From NCBI GenBank assembly GCA_035939775.1, contig DASZFO010000344.1, forward strand, positions 1 to 45,469: a DNA stretch of 45,469 nt. The letters run 5' to 3'. This document shows positions 8,584 to 19,676 of the stretch, one piece after another. Position 1 is the stretch's first letter, and each line of letters opens with the position of its first letter. The translations under genes were made by a program, and so were the position numbers. This DNA is from Pirellulales bacterium (GTDB taxonomy: Bacteria; Planctomycetota; Planctomycetia; Pirellulales; DATAWG01). The notes beneath the pieces were generated by a model. It ran no database searches and was not told the origin of the DNA. It saw nothing but the letters and a program-made list of their open reading frames with translations.

Positions 8584-11500
8584 ATGCTCTGGCATTCGTT
8601 ATTGAGCCCATTGTTTGCCCAAGCCGACCAGGCGGCTCCCGGCGCTTGGTATGAAGAGCCTTGGTTCCTGGTCGTTTCCGTCCTGCTGATCTTGATCGTC
8701 CCCTACATGCTGGGGGAAATGATCTCGCGCAAGCTGCGGATGCCGGATTACGGCTGGAAGATCGGGTTGATCTTTGTCGCCATTGTCGCCGGGATCGCGA
8801 TCGACGTCACGCGTTGGCCGCCGCGGCTGGGAATCGACCTGAAAGGGGGCGTCAAGCTGATCTACGAGCTGGACCAGAGCAAGCTGCGCTCGGTCAACGT
8901 CGATCAGTTGCTCAAGCTCCTGGCCGACGAGGCCAACAAGGCGGGCGCCTATGGCAAGAAAAAGGCCGAGGTGATCCCGCTCGGCGAGGGTCGGCTGGAA
9001 ATCAAGCTGCCGACCGCCGATGCCGAGAAGGCCGACAAGGTCGAAGCGGCCCTGGCCAAGCTGGATTTGAAGAGCAAACTGGGCGTCACGTTGTCGTCTG
9101 CTGAGCGCCGCTCGACCGATGGCGGCATTTCGCTCACCTACCAAGCCGAGCACGACGCCGGCGCGGTCGACATGGAAAAGCTGGTCACCGCGATCGTCAA
9201 GCGTGTGAATCCGGGCGGGCAGCGCGAAGTGGCAATCAGAAAAATTGGAAACGACCAGATCGAAGTCGCCATCCCCGACGTCGATAAGGCCGAGATCGAT
9301 TTGATCAAGACGAAGATTTCGAGCGCCGGGGCGCTCGAATTCCGGATCGTCGCCGATAGCCGCTTTCCCGATCATGCCGAAGCGATCGACGCGGCCAAGG
9401 CAGACCTCCAGAGCCGCTCCAACGAGGTCAGCAATGGCGAGCAGATCGTCGCTCAATGGGTCGATTTGCCGAAGAAGGTCGAAGATAGGGGAGGAAAGTC
9501 GACCTGGTTGATACGCACCATCAATGGACAAAAACAGGTCCTGGTGATGCGCGACCCGTACGACGTCACCGGCGGTTACCTTTCCAACGCCTCCTCGAGC
9601 GTCGGCGAGGAGGGAAACCAGGTGAACTTCAGCTTCAATAGCGAAGGCGCCTCGCGTTTCGGAGAGTTGACGGGCCAAAACCTTCCCGATCCGGTCAGCG
9701 GCGTGGGGCGCGATTTGGCGATCGTGCTCGATGGCACGCTCACGTCGGCCGCCACGATCCGCAGCCGAATCTCCGATAGCGGCCGGATCACCGGCAGCTT
9801 CAGCGACCAGGACGTCAACATCATCGTCGACGTGCTCAACGCCGGCGCCTTACCCGCCGCGCTGCAAAAGGAGCCGGTGAGCGAAGAGCGGATCAGCGCC
9901 GAATTGGGCCAGGACACGATCCAAAACAGCTTCATCTCGATGATCGCCTCGACCGCCGCGGTGCTGCTGTTCATGTTGTTCTACTATCGCTTCGCGGGGA
10001 TCGTGGCGAACGCGGCGGTGATCTTCAACCTGGTGCTGGTGCTGGCGCTGATGATCGTGTTCAAGGCCGCGTTCACGCTCGCCGGCCTGGCCGGCCTGGT
10101 GCTGAGCGTCGGAATGGCGGTCGATTCGAACGTGCTCATCTACGAGCGGATGCGCGAGGAAAAGGAGCGCGGCGCCGCGTTGCGGATGGTGATCCGCAAC
10201 GGTTTCGGCCGCGCCATGGCGACGATCATCGACACGCACTCGACCACGATCATCACCGGAGTGATCCTGTATGTCATCGGCACGGAGCAATTGCGCGGAT
10301 TCGCCGTCACGCTCGTGATGGGTCTGGCCGTCAACTTATTCACGGCCGTGTTCTGTGCCCGAGTGGTGTTCGATATTGCCGAACGGCAGCGTTGGCTCAC
10401 CGAGCTGAAGATGCTCAAGCTGTTCGGCGAGACGAAGATCGATTTCGTCTCGATCATGAAGCCGGCGATCGCCATCTCGATCCTGATCAGCGCGGCCGGC
10501 ATCGTGGCGGTATGCCTACGCGGATCGACCATTTTGGACGTCGATTTTACGGGGGGATGCGAAGTTCAAATCGCGTTCAATCCCGACAAGGCGGAGGACG
10601 TTTCGCAGGTTCGCAAGGCGCTCGATCAGCCGGACGTGGCAAAGATCCTTCCCGATGCCACGGTGAGCGCGGTCACGTCGGCGAAGGGGCAGGAGAACAC
10701 GCAGTTCGTCATCCGCACCTCGAATGACAAGATTAAGGAAGTCGAGGATGAATTGTCGAAGGTCTTCGGCGACCGGCTGCGGCATTACAAGGCCGCCAAG
10801 TTTACGAATCAGCACCGGATCGAAGCGAAGACGCCAGCCCCCAGCGCGCCCGAAGCTGGGCAACCGAAATCGTCCTCCCGTGCGACGACCGGAACGCAGA
10901 CTCCGAGCGGCGCGCCGCCGCCAGCCGTCCCGCCGACCGCGGAAACGCCGAAACCCGACACCGGCAAGACCGACGCAAACAAGACTGACGCAGGCGACAA
11001 TAGCAAGTCAGGAAAAAGCGAGAGCGATAACAGCAGAGCCGGCGCGAAAACCGCGCCGGCGCCGGAGCCGAACAAGGGATCGCATCTGCCGCGGTTGGAT
11101 CGGGTGCTGCTCGCGTTCGCAGCGCCAGATGCGCTGCTGGCGGATGACAACGGGGCGAAGCCAGCGGCCGACGCCCAGAGCAATCCCGCGCCGAAATCGG
11201 CTGCCGCAAATGCGAAGACCGCTCCCGATACACAGTCGAACTCGACCAACACCGCCGCGGACGCCAAACCAATAGGCTCATCGCCAGCGGATACGAAGAA
11301 GGTTGACGAAACGGCCGGATCCAAATCGGCCGATGCCAAGCCCTCGGTGCCCGAAGCGCCTTCCACTGAGAAGTCGCGATTTGCCGCTCGAGTCTCGGCC
11401 GCGCCCGGCCGCGATTCGTTCGTAGGGGGCACGGAGGTCACGCTCCAATTCGACGATCCGATCAAGTTCGACAGCCTCAAGGAATTGCTCGATCAAACGA

Positions 11501-12243
11501 TCGATCCCAAGGAGGTCCAGTATGATCTTTCGAATCCCGAGTATGCGGCCGGGAGCAAAGAGCACGCTTTCAACACCTGGACGCTGCGGCTTTCCGTGCC
11601 GCCCGAGCAAGCTTCAGTCATTCTTAGTAACTTCGCCGCCAAGCTGGAGAGCACGCCGGTGTTCCTCGGCGATTCGACGATCGGCAGCCGCGTCGCCGCC
11701 GACACCGAGCGAACCGCCATCGTCGCCCTGATCGCCAGCATCGCCATGATCGTGGTCTATATCTGGATTCGGTTCCAGAACGTGATCTACGGGATCGGGG
11801 CCGTGGTGGCGCTGGTGCACGACGTGCTAGTGACGGTGGCCGGGGTCGCGCTTAGTTACTACGTCGCGGGTTTCCTCGGCTTCCTGCTCGTCGATCCATT
11901 CAAGATCAGTCTGAATGTGGTCGCCGCTTTGCTCACGATCGTGGGTTATTCGATCAGCGATACGATCGTCATTTTCGATCGAATCCGCGAGGTCCGCGGC
12001 AAAAGCCCCGACCTGAACGAAGAGATGATCAACAAGAGCGTCAACCAGACTTTGAGCCGGACGGTGCTGACCGTGTTCACCGTGCTGTTGGTGACGATTA
12101 TCCTCTACATCGCCGGGGGCCAGGCGATCCACGCCTTCGCCTTCACGATGTTGATCGGCCTGATTTCGGGCACCTATAGCTCGGTCTATATCGCAGCCCC
12201 CTGCCTGCTGTGGCTCAAGCTGCCGGGCGGACAGGGCAAGTAG
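8584..12243 (+). CDS. secDF: Fused protein translocase subunit SecDF
   Basis: A 1219-residue fusion of SecD and SecF, the proton-driven membrane proteins that pull exported proteins through SecYEG. Two N-terminal hydrophobic stretches precede LGIDLKGGVKLIYEL (about residue 84), which opens the SecD periplasmic domain. SecD membrane helices follow with the conserved Asp in GMAVDSNVLIYER (about residue 514). SecF begins around VDFTGGCEVQI (about 650), and its helices carry TIVGYSISDTIVIFDRIRE near the end. About 200 residues rich in Ala, Pro, Lys, Thr and Ser (about 739-938) split the SecF periplasmic region into two alpha/beta halves; typical SecDF fusions are about 750-850 residues. The ATG at 8584 lacks a clear ribosome-binding site. 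Likely cotranscribed with yajC. Confidence 0.95.
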   Translation: MLWHSLLSPLFAQADQAAPGAWYEEPWFLVVSVLLILIVPYMLGEMISRKLRMPDYGWKIGLIFVAIVAGIAIDVTRWPPRLGIDLKGGVKLIYELDQSKLRSVNVDQLLKLLADEANKAGAYGKKKAEVIPLGEGRLEIKLPTADAEKADKVEAALAKLDLKSKLGVTLSSAERRSTDGGISLTYQAEHDAGAVDMEKLVTAIVKRVNPGGQREVAIRKIGNDQIEVAIPDVDKAEIDLIKTKISSAGALEFRIVADSRFPDHAEAIDAAKADLQSRSNEVSNGEQIVAQWVDLPKKVEDRGGKSTWLIRTINGQKQVLVMRDPYDVTGGYLSNASSSVGEEGNQVNFSFNSEGASRFGELTGQNLPDPVSGVGRDLAIVLDGTLTSAATIRSRISDSGRITGSFSDQDVNIIVDVLNAGALPAALQKEPVSEERISAELGQDTIQNSFISMIASTAAVLLFMLFYYRFAGIVANAAVIFNLVLVLALMIVFKAAFTLAGLAGLVLSVGMAVDSNVLIYERMREEKERGAALRMVIRNGFGRAMATIIDTHSTTIITGVILYVIGTEQLRGFAVTLVMGLAVNLFTAVFCARVVFDIAERQRWLTELKMLKLFGETKIDFVSIMKPAIAISILISAAGIVAVCLRGSTILDVDFTGGCEVQIAFNPDKAEDVSQVRKALDQPDVAKILPDATVSAVTSAKGQENTQFVIRTSNDKIKEVEDELSKVFGDRLRHYKAAKFTNQHRIEAKTPAPSAPEAGQPKSSSRATTGTQTPSGAPPPAVPPTAETPKPDTGKTDANKTDAGDNSKSGKSESDNSRAGAKTAPAPEPNKGSHLPRLDRVLLAFAAPDALLADDNGAKPAADAQSNPAPKSAAANAKTAPDTQSNSTNTAADAKPIGSSPADTKKVDETAGSKSADAKPSVPEAPSTEKSRFAARVSAAPGRDSFVGGTEVTLQFDDPIKFDSLKELLDQTIDPKEVQYDLSNPEYAAGSKEHAFNTWTLRLSVPPEQASVILSNFAAKLESTPVFLGDSTIGSRVAADTERTAIVALIASIAMIVVYIWIRFQNVIYGIGAVVALVHDVLVTVAGVALSYYVAGFLGFLLVDPFKISLNVVAALLTIVGYSISDTIVIFDRIREVRGKSPDLNEEMINKSVNQTLSRTVLTVFTVLLVTIILYIAGGQAIHAFAFTMLIGLISGTYSSVYIAAPCLLWLKLPGGQGK

Positions 12244-16831: not shown

Positions 16832-17488
16832 TTACAGCGCGTTCGTATCGCTCGCAAAATCGGCTCGGGGGTCGTGAGCGTAGAAATTCCGAGCGATGTG
16901 CTCCGCCAAGACGGCGATGTATTGGGAGCGAAACTCCGCTTCAGAACGCTCTGAGGCGGCCACGGCCGAATTCGGCGGGTAGATAACCTGCGGCAGCTTC
17001 TTTTCCCAAACTTTCTTGCCGCCGTTCTTGACGTCGCAAACCCAGATGTGCACAACCCCGCGACCCTTATACAGGGTCTGCCCCTCATTGAGGCTAAACT
17101 GTTCGAGGTCGATGCCGACGACCATGTCGGCTTTGAGCGCCTTGCCGATCTCGCCGTAATCGTTCCAGTTATGCTCGTCGGACCATTCCGCCACCTCGGT
17201 CGGACTGATTACCTGGCATTTCTTGACTTTCTCCTTCAAGAGCGATCCCACCGCGTTCGACAGATCGGGAGCGGCGCTCGAGTCGGCGTACTGCAATTGC
17301 TCGACCGGCCGACAAACGACGGCGATCCGCTTTCCGCTCAACTGCGAGAACTCGGCCTCGTCGGCGTCTTCGTGAGCGACATACCCCAACGCGGCCAACA
17401 TGTTGCAACCGCCAATCGCCACTAGCGACAGCAGTCCGAACACGGCGATCCATCCCCGCGCACAGCGGCACAGTGGAAGAGCATCCAT
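16832..17488 (-). CDS. Conserved putative lipoprotein
   Basis: A 218-residue protein of unknown function. The N-terminus has a hydrophobic stretch (WIAVFGLLSLVAIGGC) ending in a lipobox-like IGGC with Cys at about residue 28, so it should be a lipid-anchored protein. The mature part contains GKRIAVVCRPVEQLQYADSS, a DMVVGIDLEQFSL strand region and GRGVVHIWVCDVKNGGKKVW, giving an alternating alpha/beta pattern. It resembles planctomycete lipoproteins that I recognise only as hypothetical. The start at 17488 places nine residues with two Cys before the hydrophobic core, so a slightly later start is possible. It is 62 bp upstream of the ClC gene on the same strand, so the two may be cotranscribed. 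Confidence 0.8.
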   Translation of the reverse strand: MDALPLCRCARGWIAVFGLLSLVAIGGCNMLAALGYVAHEDADEAEFSQLSGKRIAVVCRPVEQLQYADSSAAPDLSNAVGSLLKEKVKKCQVISPTEVAEWSDEHNWNDYGEIGKALKADMVVGIDLEQFSLNEGQTLYKGRGVVHIWVCDVKNGGKKVWEKKLPQVIYPPNSAVAASERSEAEFRSQYIAVLAEHIARNFYAHDPRADFASDTNAL

Positions 17489-17956
17489 TGCGATCCCTCA
17501 GAGTTGATGCCAGACATGGGGCAAGAAAGGAGCGGGAGAATAGCCGCATCCGAAACAACCGACAAGAGCAGTTTGGCCCCCGCTGTAACGGCCGTAACGA
17601 CCCAGGCAGTGGTTTCCGTGCCGTTCCGAATGCGGTCTCTGCCGTTCGGGCTTGGCACTGATTCACGGAACGCAGCAGAGGGCGTACCCTACAGGTCGGC
17701 GGCGCAGTCTGCGCAATCAAAAAGCGGCCGGCCTGGGGCCTCATCCGTGGGCCCACGCCAGGCCGGGCGCTCGCGGTGCTCGGCATACGGGATGCCGGCG
17801 CCGTTGGTTCGCAATCAGGAATCGTCTTGACTCGCGATCCGTGAAACTGCCTGGGTCAACCGGTGGCCGTAGGCTGACGGTCGTGCGATTTCACGCCAAG
17901 GCGAACACTCCGAAGGACGACACGACGAACTGATACCACGCAGTCTCGAACCGTTC
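17489..17956. other. 468-bp gap downstream of mraZ, no gene seen
   Basis: The reading frames here have no recognisable protein pattern. The one clear structure is an inverted repeat: arms at 17724-17736 and 17758-17770 (GCGGCCGGCCTGG against CCAGGCCGGGCGC, 12 of 13 paired). Inside its loop a second, shorter GGGCC/GGCCC pairing is possible. No T-run follows on either strand, so it is not a standard terminator. The region separates mraZ from the lipoprotein gene on the same strand. Confidence 0.55.
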
Positions 17957-18424
17957 TCACTCAGGTTTTGCTTGTTTCTCGCCGCCGGCTGAAAACGCCG
18001 CTTCGGCGATCTGGTCGTAGCGGGCTTGTCGGCCGGCTAGGTATTCTTCCCAGCGGTTACGGTCCCAAAGTTCCAAATGATCCTGCACTCCCAACAACAC
18101 GGCCTCGCGACCCAAACCAGCCAGTTTCGCCAATTCGGGCGGAATGCGAATTCGGCCCTGGCTGTCCAGTTCGGCCGGCTGAGCCTGGGCGTAAAACAAG
18201 CGATTGAAGGCCCGCACATCCGGTCCCGCCGGCGAAGCAGCCGCGAGGCGAAGGGCCAACTGGCCGAGCGTTTCCTCCGTGTAAATGGCCAACGATCGAT
18301 CCGTTCCGGGCGTCACGAAGAGCAATCGATCCGGTCTGGCGCCGAGCAGGTCGCGAAGTCTCTTGGGGATAGCCAATCGCAGCTTTTCATCGATTGCCCG
18401 GACAAAAGTGCCGGTCAGCAGCAT
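17957..18424 (-). CDS. mraZ: Transcriptional regulator MraZ
   Basis: A 155-residue MraZ, an AbrB-like DNA-binding protein that forms rings and represses the division/cell-wall gene cluster and its own promoter. Two SpoVT-AbrB-type repeats are visible with their DxxxR motifs: DEKLRLAIP (about residues 12-20) and DSQGRIRIP (about 85-93). The first has Leu where Gly is more usual. The N-terminus MLLTGTFVRAIDEKLRL is typical, so the ATG at 18424 is the start. A promoter and four phased operator boxes lie directly upstream. The gene is not followed by mraW/rsmH or fts genes as in most bacteria; a 468-bp non-coding gap and a lipoprotein gene follow. Length and domain order are normal, with a short charged C-terminal tail. 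Confidence 0.95.
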   Translation of the reverse strand: MLLTGTFVRAIDEKLRLAIPKRLRDLLGARPDRLLFVTPGTDRSLAIYTEETLGQLALRLAAASPAGPDVRAFNRLFYAQAQPAELDSQGRIRIPPELAKLAGLGREAVLLGVQDHLELWDRNRWEEYLAGRQARYDQIAEAAFSAGGEKQAKPE

Positions 18425-18428
18425 GTTT

Positions 18429-18463
18429 CACCACTTATCCCCAATTCTTCCCACAGATGCCCA
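18429..18463 (-). promoter_or_regulatory. Probable MraZ operator: four boxes at 10-bp spacing
   Basis: Read on the minus strand, four boxes follow at exactly 10-bp steps: TGGGC (18463-18459), TGGGA (18453-18449), TGGGG (18443-18439) and TGGTG (18433-18429), each pair separated by 5 bp. MraZ of E. coli is known to bind TGGGN direct repeats with 5-nt spacers. The first box touches the -10 element and the last ends 4 nt before the mraZ ATG, so bound MraZ should block both promoter clearance and the ribosome-binding region. Confidence 0.85.
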
Positions 18464-18491
18464 AAGATACTGATTACTCCGTCGGCGTCAA
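18464..18491 (-). promoter_or_regulatory. Predicted mraZ promoter
   Basis: On the minus strand TTGACG (18491-18486), a 16-bp spacer and TATCTT (18469-18464). The predicted start of transcription falls within the first two operator boxes, giving a leader of about 30 nt. Predicted from sequence only. Confidence 0.6.
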
Positions 18492-18563
18492 GGATGTTTG
18501 GTTGTACAGTAAATGGCGAATTGGAACCGCGGTTCCGAATGCCTTGTGACGGTTGAGGTTAGA

Positions 18564-19676
18564 TCATTCGCAGAGTTCGAGATAGAGCCGCTCGTAGGCC
18601 GCGATCATTCGATCGAGGCGAAAGTGCGCTTCAACCCATTTGCGATTCGTCGCTCCCAATTCCTGCTGAAGCGATTCGTTTGCCGCGACCCGCACAAGGC
18701 TCTCGACAAAGGCACTGCGATCTTCGCGATCAACGATCTGCGCAACAGTGTTGGCTCCAAGAGCATCTCGAACTCCCTCCACATCGAATGCGACAACCGG
18801 TCGAGCGACTGCCATTGCTTCGAGCACCACATTCGACATTCCTTCCCATTGCGAGGGAGCGACAATCAAGTCGGCGGCCGCGAGAATCTCCGACACATCC
18901 TCGCGCCAGCCGACAAGATGAACACGTCCGGCGAGTCGTAATCGCTCAACCCGCCGAGCAATCGCCGCTTCTAATGGACCTTTGCCGACGATGAGCAAGT
19001 CGTGATGCGGAAGCCGAGCGAACAAATCGGGCGATCGCTCCACTAGCCATTCGATCCCCTTTTGCTCGTCCAATCGGCCGACGAAAGCGATTGCCCTCCG
19101 CCCCGCTGATATGCCAAACCGCGACAGGTCGATCGCGGCAATGGGTTCCTTGTCGAGCGACACGCCATTTGGAATCACGACGATCTTTTCCGCTGGCAAT
19201 CCGATTCGATCGCGGGCGAAGGCGGCGACTCCTTCGCTGACGGCGACGTGTCGATCGGCCAATCGACCGGCGAATCGCTCCAACGGCCATCGCGACCGAC
19301 GCCGCGGTTCGGCGACTCGCAATCCCGTCACGATTCTCCCGATTCCCGCCGACCATGCCGCCAGCGGCCCCAGCACATTGGCATGCCAGAGAAACGTTTG
19401 CACGATGTCAGGCCGCTCGGCGCGAAACTGCCGCCGCAATTGCTGCAGCACGCGCGGCGCGCTGAGCGGACCGCGGGCCCCCAAAAAGGAAACCGGAACC
19501 TGCGCGTCGCCAAGCCTCCACAGCAACCGCGCGGCGCCATCCACGGGTCGAGGGCCAAGACAGCAGACGCTCGTTTCGTGGCCCAATTGCTTCAAACCGA
19601 TCGCCAGCTCGACGAGACATCGCTCGGCGCCGCCGACGTTCAACTCGGTAATGCAGAAGGCGATTCGCAGCGGCAT
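18564..19676 (-). CDS. Family 4 glycosyltransferase
   Basis: A 370-residue GT-B fold glycosyltransferase that would move a sugar from a nucleotide donor onto a lipid- or polysaccharide-linked acceptor; donor and acceptor are unknown. The N-terminal acceptor domain opens with RIAFCITELNVGGAERCLVELA (glycine loop NVGGAE). The C-terminal donor domain has AIAFVGRLDEQKGIEWLVE, LLIVGKGPLEAAI and the EX7E-type motif PSQWEGMSNVVLEAMAVARP (about residues 276-295). Length is normal. The ATG at 19676 gives the standard family start. It lies upstream of mraZ on the same strand, but the 139-bp gap contains the mraZ promoter, so the two are probably separately controlled. A role in envelope glycan synthesis is inference. 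Confidence 0.92.
   Translation of the reverse strand: MPLRIAFCITELNVGGAERCLVELAIGLKQLGHETSVCCLGPRPVDGAARLLWRLGDAQVPVSFLGARGPLSAPRVLQQLRRQFRAERPDIVQTFLWHANVLGPLAAWSAGIGRIVTGLRVAEPRRRSRWPLERFAGRLADRHVAVSEGVAAFARDRIGLPAEKIVVIPNGVSLDKEPIAAIDLSRFGISAGRRAIAFVGRLDEQKGIEWLVERSPDLFARLPHHDLLIVGKGPLEAAIARRVERLRLAGRVHLVGWREDVSEILAAADLIVAPSQWEGMSNVVLEAMAVARPVVAFDVEGVRDALGANTVAQIVDREDRSAFVESLVRVAANESLQQELGATNRKWVEAHFRLDRMIAAYERLYLELCE

Follow-up and report, generated by a model that had tools for sequence, protein, structure and literature searches.

According to passages in PMC8475190 and PMC7761207 that cite Eraso et al. 2014, E. coli MraZ represses its own promoter. Upstream of mraZ in E. coli K-12, TGGGA, TGGGG, and TGGGA stand at -43, -33, and -23, followed by a degenerate GGGTG at -13. 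MraZ of Burkholderia cenocepacia binds a fragment with four 7-nt repeats separated by 3-nt spacers, which lies downstream of the -10 and overlaps the start site (PMC7761207). In Mollicutes, AAAGTGK-N3 units in series make up the MraZ site (PMC5282649). In M. genitalium, MraZ is a repressor whose sole chromosomal site is at mraZ, and its loss raises expression of the cluster (PMC8475190). Two PDB entries are entitled as M. genitalium MraZ with its promoter (9R4J) and with a 4 box promoter (9SZ7).

The site described here belongs to a 45,469-nt stretch of DNA from a Pirellulales bacterium, which we call the window. It shares with E. coli Pmra the direct TGGG boxes at exact 10-bp steps upstream of mraZ. 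It differs in that E. coli has three strong boxes plus the degenerate one and carries rsmH directly after mraZ, whereas mraZ of the window stands alone. The four repeats, the 10-bp period, and the position at the promoter recur in PmraBc of B. cenocepacia, where binding has been shown and the dcw operon is controlled; the window site, in contrast, is predicted, and its mraZ has no linked dcw gene. The GTG core, the 10-bp period, four boxes (9SZ7), and a site that is the only one in the chromosome (M. genitalium) are common to the Mollicute systems, and the predicted fold of the window MraZ matches the 9R4J and 9SZ7 chains. The Mollicute core is, however, AAAGTGK rather than the GTGG[G/T]G of the window lineage, and mraZ of M. 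genitalium has mraW and ftsZ linked to it, whereas no dcw gene is linked to mraZ in the window. Four-box MraZ operators are already known. A preceding reading of the sequence had set the four boxes against three in E. coli, a contrast that the degenerate box at -13 removes, and their novelty was overstated given the B. cenocepacia repeats (PMC7761207) and the four-box structure 9SZ7.

The mraZ promoter of the window and its four boxes

The minus strand from 18491 to 18422 reads TTGACG-N16-TATCTT-TGGGC-ATCTG-TGGGA-AGAAT-TGGGG-ATAAG-TGGTG-AAAC-ATG, which bears out the earlier description of four TGG boxes at exact 10-bp steps, one helical turn apart, between a TTGACG/TATCTT promoter and the mraZ start codon. 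The features are as follows.

18486..18491, minus strand: -35 hexamer TTGACG (sequence and promoter scan)
18464..18469, minus strand: -10 hexamer TATCTT, abutting box 1 (sequence and promoter scan)
18459..18463, minus strand: predicted MraZ box 1, TGGGC (sequence and genome pattern search)
18449..18453, minus strand: predicted MraZ box 2, TGGGA (sequence and genome pattern search)
18439..18443, minus strand: predicted MraZ box 3, TGGGG (sequence and genome pattern search)
18429..18433, minus strand: predicted MraZ box 4, TGGTG(A), probably also a ribosome-binding site (GGUGA) (sequence and genome pattern search)
17957..18424, minus strand: mraZ, 155 aa, with its ATG at 18424, 4 nt (AAAC) after box 4 (PF02381, fold match, and alignments)

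The TTGACG/TATCTT pair was the sole -35/-10 pair found when 17300-18700 was scanned for promoters. We looked for three or more direct (G)TGG boxes that recur every 10 bp upstream of mraZ, placed downstream of or over the -10 or the start site; the window has four, and box 1 adjoins the predicted -10, with the start site taken as expected from the promoter.

The product of the gene is an MraZ protein, and mraZ is the single MraZ gene of its genome. It scores 81 bits against PF02381 (curated cut-off, 23) and 98.0 bits against the NCBI equivalog model TIGR00242, just under the curated cut-off of 98.35. Its two DXXXR motifs (D12/R16 and D87/R91) are invariant across 15 aligned sequences, and its nearest solved relatives are MraZ proteins. 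The AlphaFold2 monomer model (mean pLDDT, 86) gave a target-normalized TM-score of 0.84 against 9QLG, and a fold search with it returned 16 MraZ chains at E ≤ 0.001, including those of M. genitalium and M. pneumoniae. The protein is thus predicted by modeling to have the swapped-hairpin, AbrB-type MraZ fold.

Could the boxes have arisen by chance in GT-rich sequence close to a promoter? TGG is common in the window, whose G+C content is 61%, and pairs of TGG do arise by chance; however, none of 20,000 dinucleotide shuffles of the 100-nt mraZ upstream region produced four phased TGG. The pattern TGG-N7 repeated four times occurs once in the 6,386,794 bases of the genome, upstream of mraZ, against no match for the reversed pattern used as a control, and the window site is also the only exact match to TGGG-N6 repeated three times. 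An operator profile of 52 positions, trained on 34 operators from mraZ upstream regions, gave the window site an E value of 1.2e-8 in its own genome and the next best place 3.3, and across 199 genomes of the class it matched 35, one site apiece and, judged by coordinates, always directly upstream of mraZ; the recovery of such sites is partly circular because of the training set, but the lack of matches elsewhere is not. The profile search of the whole genome yielded no second MraZ operator.

Conservation of the array and its tie to the promoter

Conservation upstream of mraZ in relatives had been named beforehand as a check. We compared 61 type-A mraZ upstream regions, namely, those of well-aligning relatives, most of them 40 to 70% identical, and that of the window gene itself. 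Arrays of three or more TGG boxes, each 10 bp from the next, were present in 60 of the 61 and arrays of four or five in 48, although the loci are mutually related and such counts are not independent; the longest phased array had two boxes in 1 locus, three in 12, four in 35, and five in 13. By comparison, three boxes appeared in 8 of 1,830 shuffled upstream regions and four in none. In the first 41 type-A loci, TGG pairs at a lag of 10 numbered 124 against 5.9 expected (z of 46), with z values of 40 and 20 at lags of 20 and 30 and no excess at the lags adjacent to these three. Chance is refuted by this conservation of the phase, and with the shuffles and the uniqueness in 6.39 Mb also against it, we give it practically no weight. 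The box unit had been described as TGGGN, which fits boxes 1 to 3, but the unit conserved among relatives is closer to (A)GTGG[G/T]G.

Most relatives have TTGA or TTGC at the same distance from the MraZ boxes as the -35 of the window. From the -35 to the first box there are 27 or 28 nt, or 17 or 18 nt where an extra box overlaps the -10, in 42 of the 61 type-A loci; in the other 19, the -35 was unrecognised at these distances. The extra box is a fifth one, fused to the -10 (e.g., TGGGT-ATCTT) in about a dozen relatives, which is a new detail; at the corresponding position over its -10, the window has TCAGT and so lacks box 5. The last box, in contrast, may stand as close as 2 nt or as far as 151 nt from the ATG. 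In the window, the two are indeed 4 nt apart, a gap that had been counted as part of the design, but it falls outside the logic of the operator, given this spread and a nearly fixed distance to the -35. Since the distance of the array is fixed to the -35 and variable to the ATG, the array belongs to the promoter and is a transcriptional operator.

The sequence of the last box bears on a different reading, in which the boxes work as part of the mRNA or to signal translation, as repeated Shine-Dalgarno-like motifs, rather than as a DNA operator. GGUGA, which is contained in TGGTGA, is part of the Shine-Dalgarno consensus. Where the last box lies 2 to 8 nt from the ATG, it is TGGTG in 18 of 27 type-A loci, compared with 3 of 34 where it lies at least 12 nt away (Fisher p of 2.5e-6, with the kinship of the loci ignored), and TGGTG accounts for 13 of 82 inner boxes in the 27 near-ATG loci. 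The TGGTG of box 4 is therefore not simply a decayed box; to judge from these counts, it probably doubles as an MraZ box and a ribosome-binding site, and such dual use would explain why box 4 of the window departs from TGGGN. Dual use of one box is, however, compatible with an operator, the array is fixed to the -35/-10 and not to the ATG, from which it is 40 to 150 nt away in many relatives, and a box can overlap the -10 itself. A purely translational role is thus very unlikely.

We consider it highly probable that the four boxes serve the mraZ promoter as its MraZ operator and that MraZ represses its own gene through them. MraZ, as an AbrB-type swapped-hairpin protein forming rings, would place neighboring ring subunits on the four TGG boxes, along one face of the DNA and one helical turn apart. 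So bound, it would lie over the -10, the site where transcription is expected to begin, and the first part of the transcript, and it would exclude RNA polymerase and thereby keep its own level down, while box 4 would very probably be used by the ribosome too. The run of boxes from the -10 across the expected start site is the position expected of a repressor. Autorepression, already suggested by the sequence-only reading, gains support from this place, from the uniqueness of the site in the genome, and from the MraZ fold.

Type-B MraZ and twin palindromes

Many genomes of the order, though not that of the window, encode a second kind of MraZ, type B, which is 22 to 24% identical to the window MraZ and in which another residue takes the place of the aspartate in the second DXXXR motif. 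No direct box array was found upstream of type-B mraZ. Instead, all 16 of the upstream regions analyzed contain TGGG-N7-CCCA, with 26 sites against 0.10 expected, and the intervals between neighboring sites, counting those with at most one mismatch, are 41 to 43 bp in 15 of 18 cases. This arrangement suggests a type-B operator whose half-sites are inverted and separated by about four helical turns.

When 197 genomes of the order were searched for the twin palindrome from DNA only, 64 matched, mostly once, while the control gave 0 in every genome listed. Of 20 loci fetched, 18 had type-B mraZ within a flank of about 1.5 kb, and the other two were repeat-like. By coordinates, the twin sites stand about 50 to 100 nt upstream of the type-B gene, e.g., in G472, G452, G368, and G348. 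Neither the twin palindrome nor type-B mraZ occurs in the genome of the window, and the literature searched contained nothing relevant on MraZ with inverted repeats. Separately, one genome (G499) has 21 places with TGGGTCGCAGACCCA-type twin palindromes across its contigs, which are probably copies of a dispersed hairpin repeat that has nothing to do with MraZ.

Another MraZ-domain protein was seen at L117 (G333:C22:4000-9500), where positions 1087-2295 on the minus strand, downstream of mraZ and rsmH, encode a protein of 402 aa in which a proline-rich linker lies between a hydrophobic segment at the N terminus and an MraZ domain at the C terminus; it scores 64 bits against TIGR00242, below the cut-off, and lies above the cut-off of PF02381. 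From its sequence, it is possibly a membrane-anchored MraZ-domain protein. Long frames of this kind that carry a second MraZ match were noted in G347, G355, G399, G431, and G470.

The surroundings of mraZ and the RNA element behind it

In most relatives, rsmH follows a few hundred bases after mraZ. The dcw-type arrangement, with rsmH directly downstream of mraZ, is absent from this genome, whose sole rsmH lies on another contig (C359), away from mraZ (window 16832-18424 was compared). The mraZ gene lies deep inside its own contig. In the only other genome of the family that we examined, G472, mraZ is 72% identical and the operator is kept, and the 3.2 kb read after mraZ likewise contain no rsmH; the separation of the two genes is therefore probably not an assembly fault. 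A GT4 glycosyltransferase gene and queA, upstream of mraZ, are still in place in many relatives. That mraZ in the family of the window has lost its rsmH neighbor while the operator persists is a new detail. Elsewhere in the window, a 1,219-aa frame (8584-12243, plus strand) looks by eye like SecD fused to SecF, with a long insert of low complexity.

These surroundings bear on a further alternative, that MraZ is an activator when bound to the boxes, or that it acts chiefly in trans on targets such as rsmH and other dcw genes. mraZ is usually the first gene of the dcw cluster, and rsmH is still present in this genome. Against this, the boxes lie downstream of the -10, where a repressor would sit, the genome has no second operator, and repression by M. 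genitalium MraZ needs the operator and the genes in cis (PMC8475190). No array of at least three boxes was found upstream of rsmH in the window's own genome, and rsmH was accordingly rejected as a second target in trans. We regard this alternative as unlikely and retain negative autoregulation. Since the rsmH/dcw cluster no longer stands behind mraZ and no second operator was found, the loop would control the mraZ transcript alone, that is, mraZ and anything co-transcribed with it, which would include a conserved, terminated RNA element.

17719..17920, minus strand: structured-RNA-like element 3' of mraZ (likeness to spacers of relatives, covariation, and folding)

These 200 nt after mraZ (17920-17719) resemble the mraZ-rsmH spacer of relatives (L034-L055, L130/L198). 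In the window, the element comprises a P1 stem (GTTCGC/GCGAAC), a hairpin whose loop carries CGGCCAC (17863-17869), additional hairpins, and a terminator hairpin, which has ACGGAUG as its loop and comes with a T run. Individual folds of nine members mostly showed P1 enclosing two hairpins or hairpin groups, then another hairpin, and a terminal one that T's often follow; their folding z-scores ranged from -1.6 to -6.4, that of the window copy, -1.8, being unconvincing alone. As the alignment of the whole element by MAFFT/RNAalifold was poor (consensus energy, -1.3), the CGGCCAC and A-N-GGA hairpins were tested singly. In the former, GGCCAC is invariant and CGGCCAC is present in all but one of the sequences; across 18 sequences, all seven stem pairs change on both sides, 81% of cells are paired, and the covariation of 0.648 exceeds the 0.287 of shuffled alignments (0 of 500) and the slid controls (at most 0.253). 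An A-N-GGA loop closed by a hairpin of at least 5 bp occurs in 22 of 41 spacers, against 0.5 in shuffles and 0 to 4 for other loops, in a strict test that does not score the window copy, whose ACGGAUG loop sits on an imperfect stem. No Rfam family reached its gathering score in five loci including the window, save an rRNA fragment elsewhere. The sub-threshold matches to Chlorobi-1 and lin-4 in the RNA region of the window were far below their gathering values and were taken as chance.

The A-N-GGA hairpins resemble the CsrA binding consensus, RUACARGGAUGU, so that the RNA may be linked to CsrA. Eleven CsrA-family matches were counted in the genome of the window (G000), which looks unusually many. 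Taken further, the MraZ loop, detached from the division cluster, might control MraZ together with a conserved terminated RNA with CsrA-type hairpins, its real output being a regulatory RNA that acts on the cell's many CsrA proteins, while the second MraZ lineage of the order re-uses the TGGG half-site as a palindrome; we offer this combined picture as a speculation that is probably wrong in part or whole.

The type-B palindromes and the structured RNA 3' of mraZ are more novel than the four-box operator. If the palindromes bind type-B MraZ, one DNA-reading fold would use a common half-site both as direct and as inverted repeats. The operator itself extends the known MraZ switch to planctomycetes, in which FtsZ is reported to be missing (PMC12283558). 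Even where cell wall genes no longer follow MraZ, the self-repression site persists, so that autoregulation itself seems to be selected, and this genome, whose only site stands at an mraZ unlinked to any dcw gene, is a clean one in which to ask what MraZ is for.
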